64,000 bases of DNA from Kiritimatiellales bacterium (lineage in GTDB: Bacteria > Verrucomicrobiota > Kiritimatiellia > Kiritimatiellales > Pontiellaceae), in assembly GCA_003246265.1 (NCBI GenBank), contig QKAU01000006.1:1-64000 (forward strand), written 5' to 3'. Below, in pieces: positions 999 through 48,483 of the stretch (its first letter is position 1; every line of letters begins with the position of its first letter). The notes under the pieces were generated by a model. The model was not told where the DNA came from and made no database searches. It was given only the letters and a program-made list of their open reading frames with translations. A program made the position numbers and the translations under genes.

Positions 999-1022
999 GT
1001 GCGCAGTTCTCCTCATACGCGC

Positions 1023-1054
1023 AGCCCCCGGTCTCCGGGGGCTTTTTCTTTTTT
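1023..1054 (+). terminator. Rho-independent terminator after PEP-CTERM gene
   Basis: A 9-bp perfect stem (AGCCCCCGG at 1023-1031, CCGGGGGCT at 1035-1043) with a 3-nt loop is followed by a T-rich tract up to 1054. It isolates the PEP-CTERM gene from the GH86 gene. Confidence 0.9.
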
Positions 1055-1112
1055 GTTCAAGACAACTTGCGGCCGTGGACATCGGCTACACGAAGTAGCG
1101 CGTCCCTACCCC

Positions 1113-1129
1113 ATATGCGGCTTGCATAT
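1113..1129. promoter_or_regulatory. Inverted repeat upstream of GH86 gene
   Basis: ATATGC at 1113-1118 and GCATAT at 1124-1129 form a perfect inverted repeat with a 5-nt spacer. A further CATATG lies at 1134-1139. It sits about 110 bp before the GH86 start in an otherwise empty 240-bp gap and could be a regulator-binding site. No regulator gene is in the window, so this is only a candidate. Confidence 0.3.
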
Positions 1130-1238
1130 CGTACATATGGCCAATAGGTATTCCCAGGCCGACATGCGACTATGCGTTGTCCATCCGGTAGATAAATCGA
1201 ATGGGATGGAACCCAACTTGAACCCAAAGAGGAAGAAC

Positions 1239-3998
1239 ATGAGCCCTGCCGTTCGCGAGCCTGCATCGTGCCGTCTAGCCGCGCTGGCTGCGCTTGCCGT
1301 GGTTGCGGCGCATCCTGTCCGGGCCCAGGTCGACGTGGAGATCAACGTCAACGTGATGCACACCGTCGGCGGCGTTTCCACCTTCGACCGTTCCAAGTTC
1401 ATCACCATCCACTCCAACCACGACAACGGCGATTGGCGCACCGACAACGTGCTGCCGGACCTGATGGACGATTTCCTCAACGGCAACGATGTCTATTTCG
1501 GCCGCAACACGGGCGGACTCACCTGGTATTCGAACAACAATATCGACCAGGATCCTTTGAAGGCGGGATGGCCGAAGGTTTCGGGCTCCACCTACACCTA
1601 CGTGACCCAGGGCCAGTACGTGCGCAACACCTACAACGGCAAGACGTGGGCGCATGCCTACGAGTCGCGGGCCGCTTCCGACATCCTCTGCGCCCAGTGG
1701 CACCCCTTCTGGCCCGACGGTACGCCGACCGCCCGCGGCTGGGCGCCGTCGCAGACCGACACCGTCTCCGAGCCGTTCGGCAGTGCGACGGGATACATGA
1801 TGGGGCAGTATTTCAAGAACTTCTACGCGAACGCGGGCAACGCCTACGTCGGTCCGCCCGAGCCTCAATACGTTGAGGTGATAAACGAACCCGACTACGA
1901 GCTCTGGCAATGGGATCCGCCCAACACCACCACGGAAATCGCCAACGCCGAGAAACTCTGGAAGTTCCACAATTCCGTGGCGGCGCAGATCAAGGCGGTC
2001 AACGGCTCCAACGTGAAGGTGGGCGGCTACTGCACCGCCTTCCCGGACCACGAGAACAGCGCCTTCCTGGAATGGGACCGGGAATGGAAGGCATATATCG
2101 ACAATTGCGGCAGCAACCTGGATTTCTACGCCATTCATCTCTACGACTTCAACGAGAAGGAGAGCACGGTCGGTGGCGGGGAAAACACCGGGGGCTACCT
2201 GAAGGTCCGTCGCCGCGGCAGCAACCTGGAAGCGACCCTGGACATGATCGAGCAGTACAGCGCCATGACGCTGGGCGCGCCCAAGCCCTTCGTGGTTTCG
2301 GAATACGGCGGCCGCGCCCGCAACCTGGAGTCCGGCACGTGGAGCGCGTTCCGCGACTGGCAGACCATCAAATCGCTCAGCTCCATGCTGTTGAGCTTCG
2401 CGGATCGCCCGCACCTGATCGACAAGACCATTCCCTTCATCATGCTCAAGGAGGAGTGGCACGGAACAACCCCGACGACCGTCCATCCCTGGCGGCTGAT
2501 GCGCAGGCAGGACGAGCCGGCATCCTTTACCGGCGGATGGGTCTACACCGAAATGGTGAAGTTCTACCGGCTCTGGTCCGACGTGAAGGGAACCCGGGTC
2601 TACATCCAGCCTTCGGACGTCGACATCCAGACTGACGCCTATGTCGACGGCGACAAGGCCTACATCATCCTCAACAACCTCGACACGTCCGCGCAGACGC
2701 TCAACCTCAACCTGTTCGAGGACGGCGGCAACACGCTGCTCAACGTGCGCGTCAAGAACATGTACTGGAACGGCTCGGCCGTCGCCATAGACGAAACAAA
2801 CCATCCCGGCGGACTGGCCCAGGTGCAGCTCCAGCCGGAAGGCACCGCCGTGCTCGAATACACCTTCCAGGACAGCGTGGCGATCGCCAAGACCTCGTCC
2901 GAAACCAAGCACTACGCCACGACCTACCTCCAGTCGATCAGCGCCGGCGTTCCAAGGCTCTTCGCCATCGATGGCGTGGCCACGTCGGCCTACGGCGAAG
3001 CAGTGCTGCGCCTGGGCATCGGGCGCTCGAAAACCCTCTCCAAGCAACCGACCGTGCTCTTCAACGGCACCCCCCTCTCCGTCAATCCCGACTTCATGGG
3101 CCACGAGGGCGACGACCGGAGCACCTTTTTCGGCGAACTCGATATTCCGGTTCCGTACCACCTGATCCAGCCCTCCAACACCGTTTCGGTCACCTTTTCC
3201 GACACGGGCGGTCATATCAGCAGCGTCGCCCTGCGCGCCTACGCCTTCAGCGAAGCGATCTGGGCGCCGGCCGACAATACGATCCAGATCGACTACTACA
3301 CCCTCGCCGATTCCACCCTCGCGCTGGGCTTCACCAACGGCCCGGCCGACGGCTTCTTCGCCCTGCTTTTCAAGACCAACCTGATGGATGCGGCGTGGAG
3401 CACCAACCTGACGGGACTGCCCATCGACGGGACGGGCGCGGGCGCGGTGACCAACGAGCTCGCCACGCAGATGGGATTCTTCCGCCTGGTCGCCAGCGAG
3501 GCCCCAGTCCCCTCCATGATACCGGCCACCTTCGACTGGTCGGAGGTCTCCACGGGCACCGAATGGTGGAATGGATACGGATACCAGGAGACCGAAAACG
3601 GCATCACCATGGTTTCCGGCGGCCGGGCGGCTTCGTGGAAGGGCGGGACGCCGGTCAACGGCTTTGCGCTCAAGGCGGCCTATGGCGCAGATGCCGCTCC
3701 GGGCACCTTCATCATGCAGGTGGGCGGCGTGGCCAGGAACTTCACCGTGAACTCGATCGACATTGCTGCAAACAATGCAGGTGGCCAGTTCACGCCTTCC
3801 GTGGAAGGATACCTCGACGGGGCCTTGGTATGGACCATCCTGCCGTCGAGCGGCGGGTTCGTCACCTACAGCTCGCCGACGTCCGGAAACATGGCGCTGC
3901 CGGTCGACCAGATCGTCTGGAACACGGGGGTCGCCTCGGACCCGAACACGACCTTTGGCAACAACATCGACAACCTGGAGGTTTCCGTAGTTCCGTGA
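1239..3998 (+). CDS. GH86-type beta-agarase/porphyranase with C-terminal modules
   Basis: This is a 919-residue secreted endo-hydrolase. The ATG at 1239 follows AAAGAGGAAG and starts a signal peptide ending near AHPVRAQ. Residues 30-430 look like the GH86 barrel: GGVSTFDRSKFITIHSN, the run LNGNDVYFGRNTGG, and QWHPFWPDGT. The likely acid/base is E217 (VEVINEPDYE) and the likely nucleophile is E355 (VVSEYGG). A beta-sandwich follows to about residue 600. Next comes a stretch with FKTNLMDAAW...FFRLV like the partial gene at 2-289. The last 160 residues are a copy of the domain in the PEP-CTERM protein at 399-998. The protein stops at VSVVP, exactly where the PEP motif would begin. GH86 enzymes cleave agarose or porphyran backbones. 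The family call rests on remembered motifs. GH50-like or another clan-A agarase is the alternative. Confidence 0.8.
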   Translation: MSPAVREPASCRLAALAALAVVAAHPVRAQVDVEINVNVMHTVGGVSTFDRSKFITIHSNHDNGDWRTDNVLPDLMDDFLNGNDVYFGRNTGGLTWYSNNNIDQDPLKAGWPKVSGSTYTYVTQGQYVRNTYNGKTWAHAYESRAASDILCAQWHPFWPDGTPTARGWAPSQTDTVSEPFGSATGYMMGQYFKNFYANAGNAYVGPPEPQYVEVINEPDYELWQWDPPNTTTEIANAEKLWKFHNSVAAQIKAVNGSNVKVGGYCTAFPDHENSAFLEWDREWKAYIDNCGSNLDFYAIHLYDFNEKESTVGGGENTGGYLKVRRRGSNLEATLDMIEQYSAMTLGAPKPFVVSEYGGRARNLESGTWSAFRDWQTIKSLSSMLLSFADRPHLIDKTIPFIMLKEEWHGTTPTTVHPWRLMRRQDEPASFTGGWVYTEMVKFYRLWSDVKGTRVYIQPSDVDIQTDAYVDGDKAYIILNNLDTSAQTLNLNLFEDGGNTLLNVRVKNMYWNGSAVAIDETNHPGGLAQVQLQPEGTAVLEYTFQDSVAIAKTSSETKHYATTYLQSISAGVPRLFAIDGVATSAYGEAVLRLGIGRSKTLSKQPTVLFNGTPLSVNPDFMGHEGDDRSTFFGELDIPVPYHLIQPSNTVSVTFSDTGGHISSVALRAYAFSEAIWAPADNTIQIDYYTLADSTLALGFTNGPADGFFALLFKTNLMDAAWSTNLTGLPIDGTGAGAVTNELATQMGFFRLVASEAPVPSMIPATFDWSEVSTGTEWWNGYGYQETENGITMVSGGRAASWKGGTPVNGFALKAAYGADAAPGTFIMQVGGVARNFTVNSIDIAANNAGGQFTPSVEGYLDGALVWTILPSSGGFVTYSSPTSGNMALPVDQIVWNTGVASDPNTTFGNNIDNLEVSVVP

Positions 3999-6828: not shown

Positions 6829-8358
6829 ATGGTCATCAGGATCGAAACCCTTGCCTGCATCGTTTTTGCGGCTGTCGCAAGCCCGGCCCTGCTACCGACG
6901 GCATCGGCCGGAAACGGAAGACCCAACATCGTGCTGATCATGGCCGACGACCTGGGGCTGGGCGACCTCAGCCACCATGTGCGCACCTTCATGCACAAGG
7001 AGCCGCTCTACGAAACCCCCGCGATCGACGCCCTGGCGCGGCAGGGCCTCTGGTTCACCGACGGCCACTCCGCCACCTCGCTCTGCTCCCCGACGCGCTA
7101 CTGCATGATGAGCGGGAAATGCAACTACCGTTCCAACGCCCCATGGGGCGTCTGGGGCACCTTCCGCCCCTCGGCCATCAAGGCGGGCGAACCCACCCTC
7201 GGCACCGTGACCAGGGATGCCGGATACACCACCGGCTTCATCGGCAAGTGGCATCTGGGCGGAGACTTCCTGGACAAGCAGACCGGCAGGATATACCGGG
7301 GCGATGACAACAACGACCCCGATTGCGGCGCCGACCTGACGCGGTTCGAGGGGAACGGTCCCCGTGCCTGCGGCTTCGACTACGACTTCACCCTTCCCTG
7401 CGGCGTGCAGGGCCCCATCTACCTCGCCTACGAAAACGAGGCCTGGCATCCCCTCGGCAAGGATTCGCGGATCATCTTCCTCAACGAGGAGACCGCGATC
7501 GATCCCCGGATCGTCTCCGACAAGGGCAACGGCATGGGCGACTCCAATTGGGACACCCGCCTGATCGGCCAGCTGGTCTCGCAAAAGGCGGTCGACTTCA
7601 TTGCGCAGGCCGCAACGGCCAAGAAGCCCTTCTTCCTCTACTACTGTTCGCCCGAAGTCCACGTCCCGCACTGCCCGCCGGACGAGTTCGACGGCAAGGC
7701 CATCAAGGGGGCCACCCCTTCGCGCCACCTCGACATGGTGCTCGACCTCGACCAGCAGGTGCGGCGCATCGTCGACGCGCTCAAGGCCGCCGGGGTGTAC
7801 GACAATACGCTGATCCTCTTCACCTCCGACAACGGCGGCCTGCGGGTGGACAAGGACACCGCCAAGGCCGGGCATGATTCGGCGGGCGGCTGGACGGGCA
7901 GCAAGAACCTGCCCGAGGAAGGCGGGCACCGCGTGCCGTTCTTCGCGGTATGGGCCGGCCATATCAAGCCGGGCACCACCGACGAACCGGCCATCAGCCA
8001 GGACATGCTGGCCACGTTGGCGGCCGTGGCGGGAAATCCGCTTGCCACGGAGCATCTGCCCGATTCCAACAACCTCATGCCGCTCCTTACCGGGAAGGGC
8101 GGCTACAAGCCCCGCACCATGCTGGTGCAACAGGCCGGAAGCAAGACCGAGGTCATGTTCCGGAAAGGCTCCTGGAAACTGATTATCCAGTCGAACCACG
8201 CCTGCACCCTTTGGGAGCCGATCGCACTCTACAACCTGGCGGACGACCCGCAGGAAAAGCGCAACTTCGCCGGCAATCCCGAATACGGGGAACGCATCGA
8301 ACGGATGAAGGCCGAATACCTCGCGATTCGACAGGAGGGAAGGCGTACCGCGCCTTGA
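6829..8358 (+). CDS. Secreted sulfatase (S1 family, arylsulfatase type)
   Basis: This is a 509-residue exported enzyme that hydrolyses sulfate esters. The ATG at 6829 follows GCGGGAG and opens a signal peptide ending PTASA. Metal ligands D40-D41 are in [12 protein letters not shown]86 in LCSPTR is the cysteine that must be converted to formylglycine. The chain continues with [13 protein letters not shown] and the TSDNGG metal-site motif, so the active site looks complete. No formylglycine-generating enzyme or anSME gene is in this window and one must exist elsewhere. In this locus the substrate is presumably a sulfated agar or porphyran oligosaccharide, but the S1 subfamily cannot be set by eye. 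Confidence 0.9.
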
Positions 8359-11011: not shown

Positions 11012-12262
11012 ATGAAACCGATGTTCTCAGTGATATTGGCCGGCACGACGCTGCTGGTTGCCGCGGCATGCGCGGAGGAGCAGCACTTCCCCTTCAACAT
11101 GCCCAGGGAAAAGCCGGACATGCCCCTGAGCGCGGCCATGGAACGCGCCTACGACGCCTACTCGGCCCCCACCTACTGGTGGAACGAGCTCTTTTCCAAG
11201 TTCCGTTTCACCGAGCTTGAGGGACTGGACTACCATGGCGGCGACGGCACGATCTCCCGCCGCGATCCGAGCAAGGTGGTCAAGGCCAACGGGAAATACT
11301 ACGTCTGGTACACCTGCCGCCGCACCAGGACGCCGCCCCGCGGCGCCGAGGGGGGTAGCGACGTCATTCCTTCGGCCGACTGGGACCTGGCCGAGATCTG
11401 GTACGCCACCAGCGAAGACGGCTTCACGTGGAAGGAACAGGGCGTGGCCGTCCCCCGGCCCCCGAAGCCCAAGGTGGGCTGGCGCTCGGTCTCCACGCCG
11501 GACGTGCTGGTCTGGAAGGGGAAATACTACCTCTACTACCAGGGCTTCATGGAGATGTCGGGCAAGCGCGGCGACGACTGCCCCGTCACCGTCTCGTGGG
11601 CCGATTCGCCCGACGGACCTTGGACGCCGTGCAACGAGGTGGTGATTCCCAACGGCTCCGAGGGTGCCTGGGACCAGTTCTCCATCCACGATCCCTACCC
11701 GCTGGTCTACAAGGGACGGATCTACCTCTACTACAAGTCCGACTTCAACGGACACTACGAGATGATCCGGGCCACGGGCCTGGCGGTCGCCGACGACCCG
11801 ATGGGACCCTTTGAAAAATGCCCGCTGAATCCGGTGCTCAATTCCAGCCACGAAACCGGACTATTCCCCTTCAAGGGAGGGATCGCCGCCATGTCCAGCC
11901 GCCACGGCAACGAGCTGAGCACCATGCAGTGGTCCCCCGACGGCATCAACTTCCAGGTGGCCTCCCACATCACCCTCATCCCACTCGCGCCGGGACCCTA
12001 CGTCCCGGATGCCTTTACCGGGACGGACGACGGCCGCGGCATCACCTGGGGCCTCTGCCACTTCACCGACATCGGCCCGCGCGACAAGCGGTACAGTGTC
12101 ATCGCCCGTTTCGACTGCGACCTGAGCCTCGACAAGGACGACCACTGGATGAAGGACCCCGAGCACTACTGGCCCCCGGAATTCTACTACTACACGGGAC
12201 TCGGTGCCGACGCCAAGGAGCAGCTGAAGCAGGAAGCCAGGCAGGACCTGAAGAAGCGTTGA
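11012..12262 (+). CDS. GH117 alpha-1,3-(3,6-anhydro-L-galactosidase), neoagarobiose hydrolase
   Basis: This is a 416-residue exported five-bladed propeller enzyme. ATG 11012 follows AAAGGA. The N-terminal hydrophobic segment ends VAAACAEE and could be an ordinary signal peptide or a poor lipobox. The family signature is clear: a helical N-terminal arm (MERAYDAYS, WWNELFSKFRF), then LEGLDYHGGDGTISRRDPSK with the conserved D85. Further blades carry STPDVLVWKGKYYLYYQ and SIHDPYPLVYKG. GH117 enzymes remove 3,6-anhydro-L-galactose from the non-reducing end of neoagaro-oligosaccharides. This fits the downstream genes, which encode anhydrogalactose catabolism, and is the strongest single clue to the substrate of the locus. 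Confidence 0.9.
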   Translation: MKPMFSVILAGTTLLVAAACAEEQHFPFNMPREKPDMPLSAAMERAYDAYSAPTYWWNELFSKFRFTELEGLDYHGGDGTISRRDPSKVVKANGKYYVWYTCRRTRTPPRGAEGGSDVIPSADWDLAEIWYATSEDGFTWKEQGVAVPRPPKPKVGWRSVSTPDVLVWKGKYYLYYQGFMEMSGKRGDDCPVTVSWADSPDGPWTPCNEVVIPNGSEGAWDQFSIHDPYPLVYKGRIYLYYKSDFNGHYEMIRATGLAVADDPMGPFEKCPLNPVLNSSHETGLFPFKGGIAAMSSRHGNELSTMQWSPDGINFQVASHITLIPLAPGPYVPDAFTGTDDGRGITWGLCHFTDIGPRDKRYSVIARFDCDLSLDKDDHWMKDPEHYWPPEFYYYTGLGADAKEQLKQEARQDLKKR

Positions 12263-12292: not shown

Positions 12293-12361
12293 GCACGGCA
12301 TGCGATACTGGAAGAAAGTACTATATATTCGATCCTGCCGCCGGGATATGAAAGAGGCTTC

Positions 12362-12499
12362 ATGAAGGTGTATAGGCTGTTTATCGAAGGGCAATGGGTG
12401 GATTCGGCTTCCGATTGGACGACCGGCCTCCTCAGCCCCGCGACCGCGATAATGAAGCCCTCCCCGGCGGGCGGAACACAACGTTCTGTGTCAACTTAA
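12362..12499 (+). pseudogene. N-terminal remnant of an aldehyde dehydrogenase
   Basis: A 45-codon reading frame starts at ATG 12362 with a good Shine-Dalgarno (AAAGAGG at 12351-12357). It reads MKVYRLFIEGQWVDSASD and then LLSPAT. This is the typical start of NAD(P)-dependent aldehyde dehydrogenases (x-F-I-x-G-x-W-V-D ... NPAT). A normal member has about 480 residues. Here the frame ends at TAA 12497-12499 and the next gene starts at 12510, so more than 90 percent is missing. An out-of-frame stretch at 12474-12503 reads [10 protein letters not shown] and might be what is left of the C-terminal tail, but that is weak. Position between GH117 and the cycloisomerase fits a former 3,6-anhydro-L-galactose dehydrogenase. 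Confidence 0.65.
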
Positions 12500-12509
12500 G
12501 AAGCTATCC

Positions 12510-13601
12510 ATGAACAAGATCCAACACATTGAAACGCGCCTCTTCCACGTGCCGCTCGCGGAGGTGCTCTCCGACGCCAAGCACGGCGACCATACCCACT
12601 TCGAGCTGGTAACCGCCACGGTCACGCTTGAAGACGGCAGTGAAGGCACCGGCTACACCTATACCGGCGGCAAGGGTGGCTACGCCATCAAGGCGATGAT
12701 CGAACACGACTTCGCTCCGGTGCTGGTCGGCAAGGATGGCGGCGATATCGAAGCGATCTACGACTTCATGGAGTGGCACGTCCACTATGTCGGACGGGGC
12801 GGCATCGCCTCCTTCGCGATCTCGGCCATCGATATCGCGCTCTGGGACATCCGATGCAAAAAGGCCGGCCAGCCGCTCTGGAAAATGGCGGGCGGCGCGG
12901 CCAAGACCTGCAACGCCTACTGCGGCGGCATCGACCTGATGTTCCCGCTCGACAAGCTGCTGGGCAACATCCGCGGCTACCTCGCCTCCGGCTACCGCGC
13001 CGTCAAGATCAAGATCGGGCGCCCCAACCTCGACGAGGACATCGAGCGCATCGCGGCGGTGCGCGAACTCGTCGGGCCGGACGTGACCTTCATGGTCGAC
13101 GCCAACTACTCCATGAGTGTCGAGAAGGCGATCGAGGCGGCCAGGCGCTTCAAGCCCTACGACATCTTCTGGTTCGAGGAGCCCACCATTCCCGACGACT
13201 ACCTCGGCTACGGGAAGATCGCGGAGGCCACCGGCATGCCGCTGGCGATGGGCGAAAACCTCCACACCATCCACGAGTTCGGCTACGCCTTCGAGCAGGC
13301 CAGGCTCTCCTTCATCCAGCCCGACGCCTCGAACTGCGGAGGGATCACCGGATGGCTGGCGGCGGCGGCGCTTTCGCGGAAATACGGCATCCCCGTCTGC
13401 TCGCACGGCATGCAGGAGCTCCACGTCAGCCTGGTTTCGGCCCAGCCGAACGCCGGATGGCTCGAAGTCCACAGCTTCCCGATCGACCAGTATACCACCC
13501 GGCCGCTGGTGGTCGAGAACCACCGGGCGGTCGCCCCCGATGCGCCCGGCACCGGCGTCGTTTTTAATTGGAACAAACTCAACCCGCACGAAGTACAATA
13601 G
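12510..13601 (+). CDS. Enolase-superfamily 3,6-anhydrogalactonate cycloisomerase (probable)
   Basis: This 363-residue cytoplasmic protein belongs to the mandelate racemase/muconate lactonizing branch. It has an N-terminal capping domain and a barrel with K166 and K168 (AVKIKIG), metal ligands D197 (MVDANYS), E223 (WFEEP) and E249 (MGENLH), and a catalytic H299 (VCSHGMQE). All expected active-site residues are present. In agar degraders this type of enzyme opens 3,6-anhydro-L-galactonate to 2-keto-3-deoxy-L-galactonate. The assignment comes from the GH117 neighbour and from the KDG kinase and aldolase downstream. A galactarolactone cycloisomerase or another sugar-acid dehydratase of the same superfamily is the alternative. 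The start is the only ATG that keeps the capping domain, though its Shine-Dalgarno is weak. Confidence 0.8.
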
Positions 13602-13610
13602 GAAAAGAAT

Positions 13611-14627
13611 ATGAAGGCAGCATACTATTCAGGAAACCAGAGTTTCACGATCCGCGAGGACCAGCCCAAGGAACCGCAGGCGGGGGAAGCCCGCATCAAA
13701 ATCGCGTACTGCGGCATCTGCGGCACCGACCTCCACGTCTACCATGGCGCCATGGATGCGCGCGTCACGACCAACCGCGTCATTGGCCATGAGTGCTCGG
13801 CGGTGGTCGATGCCGTCGGCGCCGGTGTCGTGGGCGTCGCCCCCGGCGACCAGGTGGTGGTCCGCCCCCTCAAGCATTGCGGCGAATGCCCCGCCTGCAG
13901 GAAGGGCTACGTGCACGTCTGCCAGAACCTCAAGTTCCTCGGCCTCGATACCGAGGGCGCGATGCAGCAGATGTGGACGCTCCCTGCCCATACGCTGCAC
14001 AAGGTTCCCTCCGACATGCGCCTCGACCACGCGGCGCTGATCGAACCGACCGCGGTGGCCTGCCACGACGTGGCCCGCTCGCGCCTCCAGCCCGGCGAGG
14101 ATGTCCTGGTGATCGGCGGCGGCCCGATCGGGCTGCTGGTCGCCATGGTGGCCCGGCAGGCCGGCGGCAACGTGGTGATTTCGGAGGTCAGCGACTACCG
14201 CCTGTCGGTCGCGGAAAAGCTCGGGTTCAAGACGCTCAACCCGACCAAGGTGAACGTGGCCGAAGCGGTTTGGAAGATGACCGGCAACAAGGGGGCCGAA
14301 GTGGTTTTCGAGGTATCGGGCTCCAGGCCGGGCATCGAGACCATGACCGAAGCCGCCGCCGTCCGCGGCCGCATCGTGATGGTCGCCATCCACGGCAAGA
14401 AGCCGGAAGTCGACATGTTCAAGTTCTTCTGGCGCGAGCTGGAACTGCTCGGTGCGCGCGTCTACGAGGCCCGCGACTACGAAAAGGCCATCGAACTGGT
14501 GGTGTCGGGGGCGATCGACTGCAAGACGCTGATCACCGACATCCAGGAACTCGAGGACATTGCGAAGGCGTTCAAGGCGCTTGACGGCAATGCCACGGCG
14601 ATGAAGAGCCTGATCAAGTGCAGCTAG
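13611..14627 (+). CDS. Zinc-dependent sugar-acid/polyol dehydrogenase (MDR family)
   Basis: This is a 338-residue cytosolic medium-chain dehydrogenase, 9 bp after the cycloisomerase, with AGGAAAAG before ATG 13611. The catalytic zinc site is marked by YCGICGTDLHVYHG and GHECSAVV. The four structural-zinc cysteines lie in CGECPACRKGYVHVC. The NAD site is VIGGGPIGLL. It resembles L-threonine, galactitol and L-galactonate-type dehydrogenases. In the anhydrogalactose pathway the product of the cycloisomerase is oxidised at C5 before being reduced to the gluco-epimer. I infer that this enzyme does the oxidation (2-keto-3-deoxy-L-galactonate 5-dehydrogenase). Substrate specificity cannot be read directly. 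Confidence 0.8.
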   Translation: MKAAYYSGNQSFTIREDQPKEPQAGEARIKIAYCGICGTDLHVYHGAMDARVTTNRVIGHECSAVVDAVGAGVVGVAPGDQVVVRPLKHCGECPACRKGYVHVCQNLKFLGLDTEGAMQQMWTLPAHTLHKVPSDMRLDHAALIEPTAVACHDVARSRLQPGEDVLVIGGGPIGLLVAMVARQAGGNVVISEVSDYRLSVAEKLGFKTLNPTKVNVAEAVWKMTGNKGAEVVFEVSGSRPGIETMTEAAAVRGRIVMVAIHGKKPEVDMFKFFWRELELLGARVYEARDYEKAIELVVSGAIDCKTLITDIQELEDIAKAFKALDGNATAMKSLIKCS

Positions 14628-14663: not shown

Positions 14664-15464
14664 ATGAGTGTCTTTGATCTGTTCAATCTGGAAGGCAAGG
14701 TCGCGCTGGTGACCGGAGGAACGCACGGCATCGGGCTGGCGGTCGGCAAGGCGCTGGGCCAGGCGGGCGCCAAGGTCTGCGTCAACGACATCGACGAAGC
14801 CAAGCTGGCCTCCGCGAAGAAGGAGTACGCCGAAGCGGGCATCGACGTCTACACGCTGGTCTTCAACGTCACCGACGAAAAGGACGTGGATGCCGGGATC
14901 TCGAAGATCGAGAAGGAGGTCGGCACGATCGACATCCTCGTCAACAACGCGGGCATCATCAAGCGCATCCCGATCCTCGACATGCCGGTGGCGGAATACA
15001 AGCAGGTGATCGACGTCGACCTGATCGCCCCGTTCATCGTCGGCAAGCGCGTCGCGCCGGGCATGATCAAGAAGCGCGCGGGCAAGATCATCAACATGTG
15101 CTCGATGATGAGCCAGTACGGCCGCAACTCGGTTTCCGCCTACGCCTCGGCCAAGGGCGGGCTGAAGCTCCTGACGGCCAACATGTGCTGCGAATGGGCG
15201 AAGTACAACGTGCAGGTGAACGGCATCGGACCGGGCTACATCGCCACGGCGCAGACCGCCCCGATCCGCGAAGGCAACCACCCGTTCAACGACCTGGTCA
15301 TGACCCGCACGCCGGCCAACCGCTGGGGCGAACCGGAAGACATCGGCAACGCCGCGCTCTTCCTCGCCTCGAAGGCGAGCCAGTTCGTCAATGGCCACGT
15401 CCTCTACGTCGACGGCGGCATCCTGGCCAACTTCGGCTATGTGAAGGGCGAAAACCAGATCTAG
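14664..15464 (+). CDS. KduD/gluconate-5-dehydrogenase-like SDR
   Basis: This is a 266-residue classical short-chain dehydrogenase, with AAGGAG before ATG 14664. The cofactor motif is TGGTHGIG, with NNAG in strand 4. The catalytic residues are S (MCSMMSQYG), Y and K (YASAKGG). The closest families are gluconate 5-dehydrogenase and 2-deoxy-D-gluconate 3-dehydrogenase (KduD). Paired with the upstream zinc dehydrogenase it would complete a two-step inversion at C5, reducing 2,5-diketo-3-deoxygluconate to 2-keto-3-deoxy-D-gluconate, which the kinase downstream can use. That pairing is inference from order and pathway logic. The fold and class are clear. Confidence 0.85.
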   Translation: MSVFDLFNLEGKVALVTGGTHGIGLAVGKALGQAGAKVCVNDIDEAKLASAKKEYAEAGIDVYTLVFNVTDEKDVDAGISKIEKEVGTIDILVNNAGIIKRIPILDMPVAEYKQVIDVDLIAPFIVGKRVAPGMIKKRAGKIINMCSMMSQYGRNSVSAYASAKGGLKLLTANMCCEWAKYNVQVNGIGPGYIATAQTAPIREGNHPFNDLVMTRTPANRWGEPEDIGNAALFLASKASQFVNGHVLYVDGGILANFGYVKGENQI

Positions 15465-15607: not shown

Positions 15608-16627
15608 ATGATGATGGCAGGAGTGGTTTGGGCACTGGTGGCGGGCGTGATGCTCGGCTTGTACGCGTTGCCGGAAAAATACACCAAGGAGTTCAAGTAC
15701 GAGAACACCTGGGGAATGTTCTTCATCCTCACCATGTTCGTCGTGCCGATCATCGCCTCCTACGTCCTGCTGGGCGGGCTCGACGTGTTCGGGATGGTCG
15801 ATTCCTCCATCATCTGGAAGATGGCCGTGGCCTCCGTCCTCTGGGGAACGGGCGTGATGATGTGGGGCAAGGCAATCAACCACATCGGCCTCTCCCTCGG
15901 CTTTTCGCTCTTTATCGGCACCGTGATTCTCGTCGGCTCCGTCATCCCTTTCTTCGTCAACGGCATCCCGCCCTCCAACGTCTTCGCCACCATCCTGGTT
16001 GGCCTGGTGATCGTACTGGCCGGTGTGGTAATGAACGGCAAGGCCGGCCTCGCCCGCGAGCAGGACGAAAAGCAGGCCGGAGCCGTCAAGGAAGAGGGCA
16101 AGGGCTCCATGCTCACCGGCATCATGATCGCGGTGATCGGCGGCCTGCTTGCCACGGGCTTCAGCTTTGCCAACGCCGTGGGTGCCGGACCGCTGGGCGC
16201 GGCCGTGAAGGAGCTCGGCCTCGCTCCATGGAAGACCGCCGTGGCGGTCATGTTCCCGATCTTCATCAGCGGCGGCGTGGTGATGGGCCTCTACTTTGCG
16301 CAGCAGCTGACCAGCAAGAAGCTGTGGGGGACCTTCAAGAGCCCGCGCTTCGCGGCCAACTTCGCCCTCATCTTCATCATGGCCTTCTTCCACTATGCCG
16401 CCTCCGCCCTCTTCGCCTTCGCCGCTTCCAAGCTGGGCGCGGCCGGCAACACCGTCGGCTACGCCATCTTCAACGCCACCTGCGTCATGACCGCCATCGT
16501 CAGCGGCATTGTCGTCGGCGAATGGAAGAAGGCCTCGCCGAAGGCCAAGGGATTCCTCTACACCGGACTGGCCTGCATGGTCGCCGGCATCATCATCATC
16601 GCGGTCGGCAACGGGCTGGGCGCATAA
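15608..16627 (+). CDS. RhaT-family sugar permease
   Basis: This is a 339-residue inner-membrane protein with about ten hydrophobic segments, and GGAGG 8 bp before ATG 15608. The pattern matches the L-rhamnose-proton symporter family RhaT of the drug/metabolite transporter superfamily: an N-terminal GVVWALVAGVMLGLYALP, a WGTGVMMWGKAINHIGLSLG segment, a charged central loop (residues about 145-165), and a second half with FHYAASALFAFAASKLG. No other sugar transporter lies in the locus. I infer that it imports the monosaccharide released by the secreted enzymes, most likely anhydrogalactose, L-galactose or galactose. L-rhamnose is the family's classical substrate, but no rhamnose enzymes are nearby. 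Confidence 0.85.
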   Translation: MMMAGVVWALVAGVMLGLYALPEKYTKEFKYENTWGMFFILTMFVVPIIASYVLLGGLDVFGMVDSSIIWKMAVASVLWGTGVMMWGKAINHIGLSLGFSLFIGTVILVGSVIPFFVNGIPPSNVFATILVGLVIVLAGVVMNGKAGLAREQDEKQAGAVKEEGKGSMLTGIMIAVIGGLLATGFSFANAVGAGPLGAAVKELGLAPWKTAVAVMFPIFISGGVVMGLYFAQQLTSKKLWGTFKSPRFAANFALIFIMAFFHYAASALFAFAASKLGAAGNTVGYAIFNATCVMTAIVSGIVVGEWKKASPKAKGFLYTGLACMVAGIIIIAVGNGLGA

Positions 16628-16645: not shown

Positions 16646-17668
16646 ATGAGCATAACCACGCAACCATTCGGCACCGTGGATGGCCGGGACGTCGACCTCT
16701 TCACGCTCAAGAACGCCAACGGGATGGTCGCCAGGATCACCAACTATGGCGGCATCGTCACCTCGCTGGTCCTCCCCGACGGCACGGACATCGTCTGCGG
16801 CTTCGATACGCTGGCAGGCTATTTCTCGGAGGCCTACAAGGCCAACTCCCCCTACTTCGGCTGCATCGTCGGCCGCTACGCCGCGCGCGTGAAGGACGGC
16901 AAGATCAAGGTCGGCGACCAGGTCCACACCCTCGCCTGCAATGCCGGACCGAACCACATCCACGGCGGCGTGAAAGGTTTCGACAAGTGCGTTTGGGATG
17001 CCGGGATCGCAGGCGACGCCCTCAGGCTTGCGCTCACCAGCCCCGATGGCGACGAAGGCTACCCCGGCGAACTCAAGGTGGTGGTTCTCTTCCGGTTGAC
17101 CGATGCCAATGAACTGGTCATGGAAGCTTCCGCCACCACCAGCAAGACCACCGCCGTCTCGCTGACCAACCACACCTACTTCAACCTCAACGGATTCACC
17201 GGCAAGATCCTCGCCCACGAGGCCATGATCGATTCCGCCGAATTCCTCGTGGCCGACGACACCGGCGTGCCGCTGGGCGAAAAGGCGGCGGTCGAGGGCT
17301 CGGTGCTGGATTACCGGAAGGCCAGGCCGATCGGCGATGTGTTCGGCGAATATCCGCAAGGCTTCGAGCACTTCTACTGCTTCGGCAAGCCTCTGGGCGC
17401 CTTCGCCAAGGTGGCGGCGTTCAAGGATCCGGAGAGCGGGCGCACGATGGAGGTTTCGACCACCGAGCCGGGCATGCTGATGTATTCGGGCTTCTACACG
17501 GCGGACAACCTGATGCGCGAAAGCGGGGCGCAATTTGGTCAATTCCGGGCTTTCTGTTGCGAGGCGTCCCGCTATCCTAACGGGCCGAATATTGCTGGAT
17601 CGCCCGGCAGCCTGCTGCGGCCCGGCGAGCAGTATACGATGAAAACCGCATACAAGATTGGATGGTAG
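16646..17668 (+). CDS. galM: Aldose 1-epimerase (galactose mutarotase)
   Basis: This 340-residue cytoplasmic enzyme interconverts alpha and beta anomers of galactose and related sugars. AAAGGAG stands before ATG 16646. Family signatures are ITNYGGIVTSLVLPD, FGCIVGRYAARV, the histidine-bearing NHIHGG, and the second histidine motif NHTYFNL. The catalytic glutamate is expected in CCEASRYPNGPN. Length is normal. It lies between the RhaT permease and the KDG kinase, with only 7 bp to the latter. It probably prepares incoming galactose from agar cleavage, although no Leloir kinase is present in the window. Confidence 0.9.
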   Translation: MSITTQPFGTVDGRDVDLFTLKNANGMVARITNYGGIVTSLVLPDGTDIVCGFDTLAGYFSEAYKANSPYFGCIVGRYAARVKDGKIKVGDQVHTLACNAGPNHIHGGVKGFDKCVWDAGIAGDALRLALTSPDGDEGYPGELKVVVLFRLTDANELVMEASATTSKTTAVSLTNHTYFNLNGFTGKILAHEAMIDSAEFLVADDTGVPLGEKAAVEGSVLDYRKARPIGDVFGEYPQGFEHFYCFGKPLGAFAKVAAFKDPESGRTMEVSTTEPGMLMYSGFYTADNLMRESGAQFGQFRAFCCEASRYPNGPNIAGSPGSLLRPGEQYTMKTAYKIGW

Positions 17669-17675
17669 AGGAGAT

Positions 17676-18779
17676 ATGGGCGAGGTGTTGAAGATCCGGC
17701 CGGCCGCGGAGTGCCGCTACGATATTGTTTCCCTAGGTGAAGTGATGCTCCGGCTCGATCCGGGAGAAGGGCGCATCCGCACCGCCCGCGAATTCCGCGC
17801 ATGGGAAGGCGGGGGCGAATACAACGTCGCCCGCGGACTGCGCCGCTGCTTCGGGCAGCGCGCAGGCGTCGTGACGGCCTTCGCCAGGAACGACGTCGGC
17901 CTGCTGATGGAAGACTTCATCCTGCAGGGCGGCGTCGACACCTCGCTCATCAAGTGGATCGCCTACGACGGCATCGGCCGGACCGTGCGCAACGGCCTCA
18001 ACTTCACCGAACGCGGCTTCGGTATCCGCGGGGCCGTTGGCTGCTCCGACCGCGGCAACACCGCCGCTTCGCAGCTCAAGCCGGGCGACATCGACTGGGA
18101 GCACCTCTTCGGCACCCTCGGCGTGCGCTGGCTCCATACCGGCGGCATCTTCGCCGCCCTCTCCGAAACCACCGGCCCGCTCGTCATCGAAGCTGCCAAG
18201 GCGGCCAAGAAGCATGGCACCATCGTCTCCTACGACCTCAACTACCGCCCCTCCCTCTGGAAAGGTTTCGGCGGCCTCGAAAAGTGCCGGGAGATCAACC
18301 GCGAAATCGCCCGCTATGTCGACGTCATGATCGGCAACGAGGAGGACTTCACCGCCTGCCTCGGCTTCGAGATCGATGGAGTCGACCACAACCTCACCGA
18401 CCTCGAGGTCGACAGCTTCAAGGCGATGATCGAAAAGGCCATCGTCGAATTCCCCAACTTCAAGGCCACCGCCACCACCATGCGCGGCGTGAAGTCCGCC
18501 ACGGTCAACGACTGGGGCGCCATGTGCTGGATGAACGGACAGTTCCACGAGGCCACGCACCGGCCCGGCCTGGAGATCCTCGACCGCGTCGGCGGCGGCG
18601 ACAGCTTCGCCTCGGGCTTCATCTACGGCCTGATGGTGCTTCAGGACGCCGCCAAGGCGGTGGAATACGGCGCCGCCCACGGGGCCCTCGCCATGACCAC
18701 GCCCGGCGACACCACGATGGCGTCGCTCGCGGAAGTTGAAAAGCTTGTTGCAGGCGCGGGTGCCCGCGTCGACCGATAG
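17676..18779 (+). CDS. kdgK: PfkB-family 2-keto-3-deoxygluconate kinase
   Basis: This is a 367-residue cytoplasmic ribokinase-fold enzyme. ATG 17676 follows AGAGGAG, and the gene begins 7 bp after galM. The N-terminal substrate region is IVSLGEVMLRLDPGEG, with GGGEYNVARGL. The C-terminal ATP and anion-hole motif is DRVGGGDSFASGF, with catalytic D309. It resembles KDG kinases (KdgK), and the next gene is a KDPG aldolase, so it likely phosphorylates 2-keto-3-deoxy-D-gluconate (or -galactonate) at O6. It is slightly longer than typical KdgK because of an insertion around residues 110-135. Fructokinase is the alternative within PfkB but fits the context less well. Confidence 0.85.
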   Translation: MGEVLKIRPAAECRYDIVSLGEVMLRLDPGEGRIRTAREFRAWEGGGEYNVARGLRRCFGQRAGVVTAFARNDVGLLMEDFILQGGVDTSLIKWIAYDGIGRTVRNGLNFTERGFGIRGAVGCSDRGNTAASQLKPGDIDWEHLFGTLGVRWLHTGGIFAALSETTGPLVIEAAKAAKKHGTIVSYDLNYRPSLWKGFGGLEKCREINREIARYVDVMIGNEEDFTACLGFEIDGVDHNLTDLEVDSFKAMIEKAIVEFPNFKATATTMRGVKSATVNDWGAMCWMNGQFHEATHRPGLEILDRVGGGDSFASGFIYGLMVLQDAAKAVEYGAAHGALAMTTPGDTTMASLAEVEKLVAGAGARVDR

Positions 18780-18788: not shown

Positions 18789-19424
18789 ATGCTGAACGAA
18801 CTGCTTAAGCGACCGATCCTGCCGGTCATCGTCATCGACGACGCCAACGATGCCGAGCCCTTGGCCGAAGCGCTGCTGAAGGGCGGAATGGACGTCATCG
18901 AAGTCACCTGCCGTACCGCCGCCGCCCCCGAGGCGCTGGCGCGCATCAAGAAATCGTTCCCCGAAATGCTGCTCGGGGCCGGTACCGTGGTCACCCCCGA
19001 CCAGGCGCAGATGTGCATCGACATCGGCGTCAGCTTCGGCCTCGCCCCCGGCCTCAACCCCGAGACCGTCGAATTCTTCCAGGAAAACAACACCCTCTTT
19101 GTTCCGGGCGTCATGACCCCCTCGGAAATCGAAGCGGGCCTCGCGATGGGCTGCAAGCTGCTCAAGTTCTTCCCCGCCGGCGCGGCGGGCGGCGTCGACA
19201 TGCTCAAGAACCTGGCGGCCCCCTACTCCCCGCTCGGCGTGCGCTTCTGCCCCACGGGCGGACTCAACCTCTCCAACATGAACGAATACCTCTCCCTGCC
19301 CGTCGTCGCCTGCATCGGCGGCTCCTGGCTCGCCACCAAGCAGCAGATCGCCGACAAGCAGTGGGATGCCATCACCCGGCAGGCCAAGGCCGCCCTCGAA
19401 AAGGCCGCCCTCGCCAAGGCTTAG
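18789..19424 (+). CDS. eda: KDPG/KHG aldolase
   Basis: This 211-residue class I aldolase cleaves 2-keto-3-deoxy-6-phosphogluconate into pyruvate and glyceraldehyde-3-phosphate. The catalytic E38 is in VIEVTCRT, the phosphate site is in GAGTVVTPDQ, and the Schiff-base lysine is K126 in LLKFFPA. The final phosphate loop reads PTGGLN and IGGSWLA. It starts 9 bp after the kinase with a GGAG just upstream of ATG 18789, and is the last gene of the metabolic operon. KDPGal specificity is possible, as the two activities share the fold. Confidence 0.93.
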   Translation: MLNELLKRPILPVIVIDDANDAEPLAEALLKGGMDVIEVTCRTAAAPEALARIKKSFPEMLLGAGTVVTPDQAQMCIDIGVSFGLAPGLNPETVEFFQENNTLFVPGVMTPSEIEAGLAMGCKLLKFFPAGAAGGVDMLKNLAAPYSPLGVRFCPTGGLNLSNMNEYLSLPVVACIGGSWLATKQQIADKQWDAITRQAKAALEKAALAKA

Positions 19425-27623: not shown

Positions 27624-28511
27624 TCAACATCCCTCTCCAAGCAGCGCTTCTACGAATTTTTCCCGGTCGAAGGGGGCGAGGTCGTCCTCGCCTTCGCCGA
27701 GGCCGGCGAAGAGGATCGGCACGCCCAGATCGCGGCGCACGGAAAAGAGGAAGCCGGCCTTCGATGAGCCGTCGAGCTTGGTCACGACGATGCCGGTCAG
27801 CGGCACCACCGCGTTGAACTGCCGCGCCTGGATGACGGCGTTCTGGCCGAGGGTGGCGTCAAGCACCATCCATACGGCGTGGGGCGCCCCTGCGAGGCGT
27901 TTGTCCATGGAGCGGCACATCTTCGGCAGTTCGTCCATCAGCGGGGTTTTGGTGTGCATGCGTCCCGCCGTGTCGACCAGCACCAGGTCGCAGCCCTTTT
28001 CCAGGGCGGCGTCGACCGCGTTGAAGGCGACGCCCGCCGCATCGTGGCCGGTCTCGCCTCCGGTAAAATCGCATCCGAGCTTTCCGCTCCAGAGCCGGAG
28101 CTGCGACGAGCCCGCCGCCCGGAAGGTGTCGGAGCCGCAGAGCATCGGCCGGAGCCCGCGGTCCATCGCCCGGCGGGCCAGCTTGGCGGCCGTGGTGGTC
28201 TTGCCGGAGCCGTTGACGCCCAGGAGCATCAGCACGAATGGATTGACGCCCGCCGGCCAGACGAAGGGTTCGGCATCGCCAAGCTCGTCGAGGAGCAGCT
28301 TCTTCAGCAGGTCGCGCCGCGAGGCCTTGCGCGGGGCGTTTTCGAGGGCCTCGACGATCTCCGCCACAAGCCGTGCCGGAACGTCGGAGCGCAGCAGCGT
28401 TTCCTCCGCAACCTCGACGTCCAGTTCGCCAGCCTCGCCGGCGTCGCCGGACGAGAAGACCTTCTGGAGGAGGTTCCTGGTCTTGGCAAGCGCACCGAAC
28501 CACCCGGCCAT
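27624..28511 (-). CDS. ftsY: Signal recognition particle receptor FtsY
   Basis: This 295-residue SRP GTPase docks SRP-ribosome complexes at the inner membrane. It has a short N domain and no long acidic A domain. The G domain has LLGVNGSGKTTTAAKLA (P-loop), DTFRAA, LVDTAGRMHT, VVTKLDGSSKAG and FAGLGEGEDDLAPF. Its ATG at 28511 shares one base with the nusB stop (TAATG). Placement inside the riboflavin operon is unusual. Confidence 0.96.
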   Translation of the reverse strand: MAGWFGALAKTRNLLQKVFSSGDAGEAGELDVEVAEETLLRSDVPARLVAEIVEALENAPRKASRRDLLKKLLLDELGDAEPFVWPAGVNPFVLMLLGVNGSGKTTTAAKLARRAMDRGLRPMLCGSDTFRAAGSSQLRLWSGKLGCDFTGGETGHDAAGVAFNAVDAALEKGCDLVLVDTAGRMHTKTPLMDELPKMCRSMDKRLAGAPHAVWMVLDATLGQNAVIQARQFNAVVPLTGIVVTKLDGSSKAGFLFSVRRDLGVPILFAGLGEGEDDLAPFDREKFVEALLGEGC

Positions 28512-28972
28512 TACTCCCCTCCCCCCGGCGGCTTGCAGGTAGTGCGGGCGGGGCGGTCGATATCCTTCCGGATGCGGTCGAGCACGCCGTTGACGAAGCG
28601 GCCCGACTGGAAACTGGCGAAGTCCTTGGCAAAGTGGACCGCCTCGTTGATCGAAACGACCGGTGGGATGTCCTCGCGGTAGAGCATTTCAAAGAGCGCA
28701 ACGCGCATCACCGTGCGGTCCACGGCGCCCATGCGGTCCGAGTTCCAGCGCTTCGCATAGTGCGAGAGCTTCTCGTCGAGCTCCTGCTTGCGCTGCACCA
28801 CGCCCTTGATGATCTCTTCGGCATAGGTCTTCTCGCGCTCGCTCGGCGACTTGTCCTCCCAGAAATCCTTCAGGGCCGTATCGATCGGCTCGGGATTGAA
28901 GTCGAGCTGGAAGAGGAACTGCATGATCCATTCGCGCGTTTCGCGCCGCCCGTTGACCTGTTTTTTTTCCAT
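28511..28972 (-). CDS. nusB: Transcription antitermination factor NusB
   Basis: This 153-residue all-helical protein forms the boxA-binding antitermination complex with NusE. Signatures are RRETREWIMQFLFQLDFN at the start, VDRTVMRVALFEMLY in the middle, and PPVVSINEAVHFAKDFA with FVNGVLDRI at the end. Its coupling to ribH is common in bacteria. It begins 3 bp after ribH. Confidence 0.95.
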   Translation of the reverse strand: MEKKQVNGRRETREWIMQFLFQLDFNPEPIDTALKDFWEDKSPSEREKTYAEEIIKGVVQRKQELDEKLSHYAKRWNSDRMGAVDRTVMRVALFEMLYREDIPPVVSINEAVHFAKDFASFQSGRFVNGVLDRIRKDIDRPARTTCKPPGGGE

Positions 28973-28975
28973 AGG

Positions 28976-29488
28976 TTATCCCAGTTTCCTGTAGACGCGC
29001 GCGGTTTCGATCGCCGCCTCGGCCGCATACCAGCCCCGCGTGTTCTCTCCGCCGCGGCAACGGGCCTCGGCCTGCGCCCAGCTGCGCACCCCGACGATTT
29101 CGTTGATGACCGGGATCCGGTGGCGGCAGGCAATATCGAGGATCGCCTGCCCGGTCGTGTCGATGATCATCTGCGCATGCTGTGTTTCGCCCTCGACCAC
29201 CACGCCGAGGACGATGAGCGCGTCGTACCGCCCACCCGCCGCCATCTTCTCGGCGACCACGGGGATTTCATACGCCCCCGGGACGCGCACGACATCGATC
29301 GTTCCCGACCTGGCGCCGTTCCGTTCAAGGCAACCCACCGCGCTGCGCGCCAGTTCGTCGGTCAATTCGTCGTTGAACCGGCTTGCGACAATGCCGAACC
29401 GCAGGCCGGAGGCATCGAGGTCGCCGACGACCTGGTTGGCCCCGATACCGCCGATCGGCGCGATGGTTTCCGAAATCCCTTTGCCCAT
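28976..29488 (-). CDS. ribH: 6,7-dimethyl-8-ribityllumazine synthase
   Basis: This is a 170-residue lumazine synthase. It reads LRFGIVASRFNDELTDELAR, then VRVPGAYEIPVVAEKMA, and VVVEGETQHAQMI with the catalytic histidine. The order of motifs and length are typical. The N-terminus has about 25 extra residues with GGIGANQVV. It lies 45 bp after ribBA in the FMN-controlled operon. Confidence 0.95.
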   Translation of the reverse strand: MGKGISETIAPIGGIGANQVVGDLDASGLRFGIVASRFNDELTDELARSAVGCLERNGARSGTIDVVRVPGAYEIPVVAEKMAAGGRYDALIVLGVVVEGETQHAQMIIDTTGQAILDIACRHRIPVINEIVGVRSWAQAEARCRGGENTRGWYAAEAAIETARVYRKLG

Positions 29489-29533
29489 GTTCCACCCCAG
29501 CCTGTTCGCGTCCGGCTTTGGACAGCAATGTTT

Positions 29534-30739
29534 CTAGATGATATGCCCCAGCTTGTCGCGCTTGGTCGACAAATAGTTGACGTTGTGCTCCGACGGGGGC
29601 AGCACCAGCGGTTCGCGCGAAGCGATGGTGATTCCGTACTTGTCCAGCCCCTGAATCTTTGCCGGATTGTTGGTCAGCAGCCGGATGGTCGCCATGCCGA
29701 GGTCGTTGAGGATCTGCGCGCCGATGCCGTAGTCGCGCAGGTCGGCCCCGAAGCCGAGATGTTCGTTGGCTTCGACCGTATCCATGCCCTGCTCCTGCAG
29801 CTCGTAGGCGTGGAGCTTCTTCGCCAGGCCGATGCCCCGCCCCTCCTGGCGCATGTAGACGATGGCGCCGTAGCCGTGCGCCTGGATCGCCTTCATGGCG
29901 GCATGGAGCTGGGCGCCGCAGTCGCAGCGCATGGAGTGGAAGACGTCGCCGGTGAGGCATTCGCTGTGCACGCGCACCAGCGGCGTCTTGCCACCGGAGG
30001 CGTCGCCACAGACGAGGGCCAGGTGGTCCTTGTGGTCGACGGCCGAGCTGTAGAGCTTGAGGCGGAAGGGGCCGGCATCGGTCGGCATGTTGATCTCGCG
30101 TTCCAGATGGACCAGCCGCTCGTGGGTGTAGCGGTATTTCACGATCTCGGAGACGGCGGTCATCTTCAGCCCGTGGTGGTCGGCGAAGCGGCGCAGGTCG
30201 TCGGTGCGCATCATGTCGCCATCCTCCCTGAGGATCTCGCAGATGACCCCGGCGGGTTTCAGGCCGCAGATGCGGGCGAGGTCGACCGTGCCCTCGGTAT
30301 GGCCGGCGCGCTGGAGCACCCCGCCGGGCTTGGCCTTGAGGGGGAACATGTGGCCCGGCTTCACGAAGTCGCCGGCCTGGCTGCTTTCGTCGACCAGGGC
30401 GCGGACGGTCTGGGCCCGGTCGGCGGCGCTGATGCCGGTGGTGGTCCCTTTCCGCACATCCACCGAATCCATGAACGCGGTGTGGTATTTGTCCGACGAG
30501 TGGGCGGGCACCATGTGCGCAAGACCGAGGCGGGCCAGGGCCTTCTCTTCCATCGGCACGCAGACCAGCCCGCGCGCCCGGGTGATCATGAAGTTGATGG
30601 TTTCAGCCGTGACCTTTTCCGCCGCGCAGACCAGGTCGCCCTCGTTCTCGCGATCCTCGTCGTCGGTCATCACCACGGTTTCGCCGCGCTTGAACGCCTC
30701 GATCACATCCTCGATCGGATCGAACAGATTCTTGCCCAT
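29534..30739 (-). CDS. ribBA: Bifunctional DHBP synthase / GTP cyclohydrolase II
   Basis: This 401-residue enzyme makes both riboflavin precursors. The start at 30739 is set by CAGGAGAGACG just before the ATG. The RibB half has VMTDDEDRENEGDL, AADRAQTVRALVD and HTEGTVDLARICGLKPAG. The RibA half has the zinc cysteines CLTGDVFHSMRCDCG, the RQEGRGIGLAKKLHAY motif and the GTP-binding tail DYGIGAQILNDLG. Both halves look intact. It is the first gene behind the FMN riboswitch. Confidence 0.96.
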   Translation of the reverse strand: MGKNLFDPIEDVIEAFKRGETVVMTDDEDRENEGDLVCAAEKVTAETINFMITRARGLVCVPMEEKALARLGLAHMVPAHSSDKYHTAFMDSVDVRKGTTTGISAADRAQTVRALVDESSQAGDFVKPGHMFPLKAKPGGVLQRAGHTEGTVDLARICGLKPAGVICEILREDGDMMRTDDLRRFADHHGLKMTAVSEIVKYRYTHERLVHLEREINMPTDAGPFRLKLYSSAVDHKDHLALVCGDASGGKTPLVRVHSECLTGDVFHSMRCDCGAQLHAAMKAIQAHGYGAIVYMRQEGRGIGLAKKLHAYELQEQGMDTVEANEHLGFGADLRDYGIGAQILNDLGMATIRLLTNNPAKIQGLDKYGITIASREPLVLPPSEHNVNYLSTKRDKLGHII

Positions 30740-30750
30740 CGTCTCTCCTG

Positions 30751-30792
30751 AAAACCAAAAACCCTGAAGTGCGTACGCCTTCAGGGTTTTTT
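30751..30792 (-). terminator. Riboswitch-linked terminator before ribBA
   Basis: CCCTGAAG and CTTCAGGG (30762-30769 and 30779-30786) form a perfect 8-bp stem with a 9-nt loop. On the minus strand it is followed by TTTTTGGTTTT. It lies between the FMN aptamer and the ribBA ATG, the expected position for an OFF-type transcription attenuator. Confidence 0.88.
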
Positions 30793-30938: not shown

Positions 30939-31095
30939 GCAATATGGAGCAACCCCTACAGCTGCGCAAGTGGAATTTGTCCGCATTCGGTCCGCGGCCC
31001 GCCCCGCTTTGGCTTGCATAGGATTTGCCAAGGCTCGGGGGCTTTGGCATGGTTCGCGACGTTTGCCGCATCTGCCACGCATGCCCAGGGGAACC

Positions 31096-35045: not shown

Positions 35046-35060
35046 ATCAGCCCTGTCTCC

Positions 35061-37562: not shown

Positions 37563-37572
37563 GGATCCCTCC

Positions 37573-38442
37573 CTAGTCGATCTTTACCAGCTTGTACGCG
37601 CGGACGTAGTCGTAGAGCGTCGTGTTGCGCGATTCGTCCATCAGGTCCTCGACGGTGGGAACCACCTCCCAAGCATAGATCTCGCACACGAGATTCACGA
37701 ACATCGGCTGGTCGAAGGGCGTCGCGTCGAGGTCGGTATCGGGCTCGATGGTGTGCACGAGCTTTCCATCCAGGTAGAACTTCATGGTATGGGAATCGAC
37801 CCACCAGCAGCCGTAGGTATGGAACGCCTCGTCGACCTTGCCGCCGATATTGGTCGAAGCCCCCTTCTTTCGTTCCAGCGGCTCGGCCGCCGGATCCGCG
37901 GGATAGAGGTTGACGTGGGTGTTCGACTTCATCTGGAAGGCGAAGTCGGGCCAGCGCTGCGCGTTGCCGATGCACTCCTGGATATCGAGCTCGGTCGACT
38001 TGGAAGGACGCGCCTTCTTGTCGCGCGGGTTCATCAGCCAGAAGGTGGACGAGGTCGAGATGCCCGACGCCTTCATGCGGGCCTCGTAGTAGCCGTAGCG
38101 CGCCTCCTGCGCCTTGGACTGGATGGCTCCGCAGGCGATCCACCACTCGTTGCTCACCCCCTGGGGCGGATTGAGCACGGAGCTCGTGATCCGCAGGCAG
38201 CCATCCTTCATGCTGACAGCCGAGGGGACGAATTTCCCGGGAACGCGACCTTCCCATCCGGGATAGTGGTCGTGCCACTTCTCCTGGTCAAGCTCGGTGC
38301 CGTTGAACTCGTCGCTGTAGGGATCGTTCAACACCCACCTGAAGCCGGCGGGGGCTTCGACGGGCGGCGGAGGGATCTCCTGGGCGCCCGCATTCGACAA
38401 GGCGGTGGCGAGAGCTGCAAGGGCGATCATTCTCTGTTTCAT
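37573..38442 (-). CDS. GH16 endo-galactanase (agarase/porphyranase type)
   Basis: This is a 289-residue secreted beta-jelly-roll enzyme, with AAGGAG ahead of ATG 38442. A signal peptide ends ALSNAGA. The catalytic signature E151-L-D153-I-Q-E156 in [12 protein letters not shown] gives nucleophile, helper and acid/base. The strands before and after ([34 protein letters not shown]) are typical of GH16 agarases, porphyranases and carrageenases. The sulfatase and GH29 neighbours favour a porphyran substrate, but the subsite residues cannot be judged by eye. Confidence 0.85.
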
Positions 38443-38458
38443 GGCTGGCTCCTTAACC

Positions 38459-40084: not shown

Positions 40085-40085
40085 G

Positions 40086-41711: not shown

Positions 41712-41735
41712 CTCGATCTCCTTTCTACAGCGAGT

Positions 41736-41761: not shown

Positions 41762-41823
41762 GCGGAACGCAATCCTCCACTCGGAAAAGAGATCTTTCGC
41801 GGAGTTCCATCCCTGCCGGCGGT

Positions 41824-48402: not shown

Positions 48403-48483
48403 ATCGCGCCTTTCCCTCAATGTTTATGTTCTCATTAAATAAGCATGATCCCCCGCAAACTGGCAATCTTATTCGATTCCATT

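Follow-up and report, generated by a model that had tools for sequence, protein, structure and literature searches.

A complete gene for anhydrogalactose (AHG) dehydrogenase (AHGD), the enzyme that starts the breakdown of the seaweed sugar 3,6-anhydro-L-galactose (L-AHG), very probably once stood between a GH117-type gene and a cycloisomerase gene in the 64,000-nucleotide stretch of Kiritimatiellales bacterium contig QKAU01000006.1 examined here (the window), and became a pseudogene through an internal deletion of ~1.3 kb. The N-terminal end of the gene is still in place, its core is missing, the intact gene is found in relatives and the assembly holds no close second copy. A trace of the C-terminal end, and deletion rather than misassembly as the cause, are also supported, if less strongly. 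The features of the locus are the following:

11012..12262, + strand: GH117-type 3,6-anhydro-alpha-L-galactosidase-like gene, directly upstream (phmmer, 4u6d_A, 609 bits; 3p2n, 3,6-anhydro-alpha-L-galactosidase, 205 bits)
12350..12361, + strand: retained Shine-Dalgarno region, read from the sequence as GAAAGAGG, then CTTC, then ATG
12362..12445, + strand: N-terminal remnant of the AHG dehydrogenase gene, codons 1-28 (identity to six intact relatives; genus search)
12362..12499, + strand: 45-codon open reading frame, very probably a deletion leftover (pseudogene), with residues 29-45 non-homologous to AHGD
12446..12477, + strand: junction filler of ~32 bases, without significant match to the AHGD gene or the rest of the genome
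~12478..12495, + strand: putative C-terminal trace of the AHGD gene, ACAACGTTCTGTGTCAAC; close relatives have AARACSTTYTAYGTRAAY (KTFYVN); frame +2 relative to the N-terminal remnant
12510..13601, + strand: 3,6-anhydro-L-galactonate cycloisomerase, intact (5xd7, 613 bits, next family 322; 84-88% identity to close congeners)
13611..14627, + strand: zinc-dependent alcohol dehydrogenase (ADH), probable 2-keto-3-deoxy-L-galactonate 5-dehydrogenase (Pfam ADH_N/ADH_zinc_N)
14664..15464, + strand: SDR of the gluconate 5-dehydrogenase type, probable diketo-deoxygalactonate reductase (NF005488, 436 bits, cut-off 369)
15608..16627, + strand: RhaT-type sugar/H+ symporter (Pfam PF06379)
16646..17668, + strand: aldose 1-epimerase (Pfam PF01263)
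17658..18779, + strand: PfkB-type kinase, probable KDG kinase (PF00294; KDG/KDGal kinase models match below cut-off)
18789..19424, + strand: KDPG/KHG aldolase, eda (TIGR01182, 235 bits, cut-off 156)

Judged by its gene content, which also includes GH2 and sulfatase genes, the window is a predicted red-algal galactan locus of a known agar/porphyran catabolic type. The cycloisomerase is of the L-enantiomer type, its match at 613 bits (5xd7) being named 3,6-anhydro-alpha-L-galactonate cycloisomerase. A GH86 agarase/porphyranase-type gene lies at 999-3998, and two GH16 matches, sulfatases, an alpha-L-fucosidase and a GH2 gene are found at 33549-48438. Two long frames at 28373-30751 (792 aa) and 30970-33333 (787 aa) had no Pfam match, the first also lacking a PDB match, and may be undescribed proteins or wrong frames.

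An earlier interpretation made from the letters alone (the sequence-only reading) had described the short frame as combining a ribosome binding site with the N-terminal signature of an aldehyde dehydrogenase, and this was borne out. The ribosome site is fair, with AGAGG four bases 5' of the ATG at 12362, and close relatives carry GGAGG or a similar motif in the same place at the AHGD start. A search of 58 genomes (the source and 57 relatives) matched the stub to the N-termini of full-length aldehyde dehydrogenases (open frames of 484-536 aa) in six congeneric genomes, with E-values of 2e-5 to 5e-3; a seventh match (G006) contained two in-frame stops and was taken as chance. Across codons 1-28, 14-17 of the 28 residues are identical to those of the six intact relatives, and stops and frameshifts are absent. 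Homology to AHGD is clear only for these residues, the remaining 17 (29-45) being out-of-frame or unmatched. Pfam returned no match at E≤1 for the 45-residue stub, which is too short. The top eight matches to solved structures were all aldehyde dehydrogenase N-termini, at weak E-values (0.11-0.99), and included AHGD 6j75, aligned 1-28 to 1-28. The file of this structure names only an aldehyde dehydrogenase A, which we take to be the Vibrio AHG dehydrogenase. At its N-terminus the remnant is orthologous to AHGD; it does not encode a functional enzyme, as it lacks codons 29 to ~472 and with them both catalytic residues (Cys and Glu) and the NAD(P) fold.

The stub had been placed where the first AHG-oxidising enzyme would be expected, between GH117 and the cycloisomerase, and comparison of this junction in related genomes agrees. 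An intact 480-aa AHGD is found at that point, directly upstream of the cycloisomerase, in every one of the six congeneric genomes whose cycloisomerase is complete, and the remnant occupies the same position relative to the AHGA cycloisomerase of the window. These six, among them Pontiella sulfatireligans F21 (L024) and Pontiellaceae bacterium B12227 (L025), are the only ones of the 57 relatives with a complete close cycloisomerase orthologue, that of G014 being partial (234 residues). The alcohol dehydrogenase orthologue is at the same place in each of the six. In three relatives the gene order is GH117-AHGD-cycloisomerase-ADH-SDR, with the GH117 orthologue directly upstream of the intact AHGD (L025, 75%; L105, 69%; L104, 67%), and the window has this order except for the missing AHGD. 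The full length of the L025 AHGD aligns with PDB 6j75, scoring 775 bits, compared with 450 bits for E. coli AldA. From the start codon of AHGD to that of the cycloisomerase the window measures 148 bp, versus 1439-1556 bp in the six relatives, a net loss of 1291-1408 bp that fits the in-locus deletion of ~1.3 kb proposed by the sequence-only reading.

Such a deletion would have removed roughly codons 29-472, catalytic residues included, together with most of the intergenic gap after AHGD, and would have spared the ribosome site and the beginning of the gene, along with a trace of its final codons. This trace, which the sequence-only reading had missed, matches the KTFYVN codons at the extreme C-terminus of the relatives' AHGD. 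Shuffle tests restricted to the gene end gave p=0.0003-0.008 and an ungapped 21-nt test p=0.00025, the restriction having been chosen post hoc, after the alignment had been seen. Tested over the whole 1.4-kb gene, the score of the ~18-base trace was reached by 8-12 of 200 shuffles for the two best relatives, and local alignment of the 64-base tail against the whole gene favoured the C-terminal placement in three relatives, not significantly. The trace no longer has the original AHGD stop and lies in frame +2, so that a mini-protein fusing it to the N-terminal part is impossible. Both gene ends would therefore flank the missing core, the N-terminal one clearly and the C-terminal one as a trace (p ~0.0003-0.008, restricted post hoc) whose position at 12478-12495 places the event inside the gene. 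For the 247-bp region around the join, no other significant place was found in the genome. For a candidate middle fragment of AHGD in the filler, GATAATGAAGCC aligned to the DGNEA codons, a left-piece test gave no significance (p=0.15), and the fragment was rejected.

Elsewhere in the assembly no close AHGD was found. The genome-wide search for a full-length AHGD-like enzyme, a check proposed with the sequence-only reading, recovered only two other full aldehyde dehydrogenases, with 46% (contig C62) and 37% identity to AHGD, and a more distant family member is present on contig C37. The reaction could have been taken over by the C62 enzyme (C62:13553-15004), which would be a possible outcome of the deletion and no rival to it; we consider such a takeover unlikely. 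This enzyme is the nearest relative of AHGD in the genome (46% identity, 458 bits) and scores higher against AHGD 6j75 (452 bits) than against AldA (397 bits). Moreover, Streptomyces SCO3486 oxidises L-AHG while only 40% identical to the Vibrio enzyme (PMC9706016), so identity alone does not settle substrate in this family. However, the C62 gene lies in an operon that relatives have largely conserved and that also encodes an IclR regulator, an enoyl-CoA hydratase and class III CoA-transferases. Orthologues of the C62 gene (74-82%) stand alongside a true AHGD in three relatives (G021, G024 and G027), which makes it an old paralogue and not one that arose as a replacement. Nor did any other dehydrogenase replace the deleted dauA, the D-AHG enzyme, in Zobellia (PMC5698469). 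A GH117 gene ~7 kb away had suggested an agar context for the C62 enzyme, a proposal against which the conserved operon argued. On contig C62 (L109, 2374-9008) the conserved group comprises a CoA-transferase III (double domain), a solute-binding protein, an IclR regulator, an enoyl-CoA hydratase and the AldA/AHGD-like aldehyde dehydrogenase.

The assembly is a draft in 81 contigs with 96% completeness, so a strain mixture or a second AHGD copy elsewhere in the genome is possible, the latter being unlikely. The draft state also bears on whether the gene was merely collapsed or mis-joined in an organism with an intact AHGD at this point, a reading we regard as improbable. It would accord with the downstream pathway genes, which show no specific relaxation, as expected of a working pathway. 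Assembler collapse, however, requires a long repeat and generates no new sequence. No repeat common to the two gene ends of the relatives was obvious by eye, no other contig carries the missing 1.3 kb, and at the join stand ~32 bases without a match and a C-terminal trace that has diverged and lies out of frame, which favours a real deletion.

Pairwise dN/dS of the cycloisomerase is ~0.04-0.10, and ~0.06-0.07 on the source branch. Relaxed selection was tried as a clock for the loss and rejected: downstream genes evolve 1.2-2.2 times faster than in the sister (nonsynonymous rate of the cycloisomerase, 1.5-1.8 times), but control genes elsewhere (contig C62) do so too, at 1.3-2.5 times, with synonymous sites near saturation in this comparison. 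Within the remnant, codon positions one and two are better kept than the third, a weak test over 28 codons; together with the open frame this suggests that selection probably acted on AHGD through most of the history of the lineage. Given the intact remnant frame and the continued constraint on downstream genes, the loss is probably recent when set against the divergence of the species. Constraint on the other pathway genes probably means either such a recent loss or a lower pathway that is still in use or fed.

GH117 enzymes release L-AHG, and with AHGD missing the L-AHG so released would be barred from the pathway by the known route. We infer that dedicated L-AHG oxidation has been lost in this cell. 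L-AHG from GH117 would then either go unused while galactose is consumed or be oxidised by a less specific aldehyde dehydrogenase. The model we favour on present analysis is plain loss of L-AHG use, with galactose presumably still used. The analogy is with Zobellia, in which loss of the D-AHG enzyme was uncompensated, and growth on carrageenan was lower but continued, which was ascribed to galactose (PMC5698469).

An AHGD-like gene of ~50% identity or more occurs in 67 of 80 cycloisomerase loci within the DNA fetched, several of the rest being short contigs. Nine cycloisomerase genomes were searched whole. Flavilitoribacter nigricans (L067) has no AHGD at its SDR/cycloisomerase interval (7891-8001) and a 63% copy elsewhere, so AHGD need not be part of the locus; L095 has a 66% copy elsewhere and a 50% one near the locus. 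In the remaining seven (L096, L100, L055, L101, L038, L084 and L077), with cycloisomerase orthologues of 73-78%, the best AHGD match in the whole genome is 30-39%, and a cycloisomerase without a close AHGD is therefore not unique to the window. L100 carries an ABC sugar transporter followed by cycloisomerase-ADH-SDR. In L096, ADH, SDR and cycloisomerase are adjacent and have a TRAP transporter nearby, without AHGD there. TRAP transporters are a type often used for organic acids.

The seven genomes, and the transporter adjoining the L096 genes, would suit a lower pathway whose substrate, for instance 3,6-anhydro-L-galactonate taken up from outside, enters past the AHGD reaction. AHGD would then be dispensable, and such feeding would be a cause or consequence of the deletion, not a rival to it. 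Against this, the transporter in the window is of the RhaT sugar type, the L-AHG-releasing GH117 is intact, and a more distant dehydrogenase may serve in the seven genomes; we find such feeding improbable for the window. There is a similarly small chance that the cycloisomerase-ADH-SDR-kinase-aldolase module works without AHGD on imported 3,6-anhydro-L-galactonate or some other acid supplied by neighbours, in which case the deletion would be one of several independent shifts to acid cross-feeding, beside the Opitutaceae and Rhodobacterales loci without a close AHGD. That the 45-codon frame encodes a functional small protein is scarcely credible, even with ribosome site and frame both intact, since residues 29-45 are unmatched out-of-frame sequence, so short a product is found in none of the relatives and what is homologous amounts to a piece of a larger fold.

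Internal deletion of AHGD in this marine bacterium of Pontiella type adds one more case to a familiar class of event, ordinary lineage-specific gene loss, in a known pathway. It corrects the reading of the pathway as complete: annotation from the neighbouring genes would predict L-AHG use, but the committing enzyme is missing from an otherwise intact set of pathway genes. The locus offers the equivalent, in nature, of knocking out the dehydrogenase in an agar/porphyran degrader, and it points to cycloisomerase loci elsewhere without a close AHGD.

Compared with characterised AHGD (EC 1.2.1.92; VejAHGD/VvAHGD, PDB 6j75/6j76), the relatives' orthologues match 6j75 over residues 1-480, whereas the remnant aligns with residues 1-28 and is without the catalytic and cofactor-binding core. 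Like the agar/porphyran L-AHG loci of Vibrio sp. EJY3, Streptomyces (SCO3486-SCO3480) and the agar-growing Pontiella agarivorans, the window has GH86, GH117, the cycloisomerase, two further dehydrogenases, a kinase and an aldolase; unlike them, its first dehydrogenase is, very probably, a pseudogene. The carrageenan dauA-D pathway of Zobellia, which acts on D-AHG and for which a dauA deletion mutant has been described (PMC5698469), shares its chemistry and gene logic with the window but differs in enantiomer, the window's cycloisomerase matching the L-enantiomer enzyme 5xd7.
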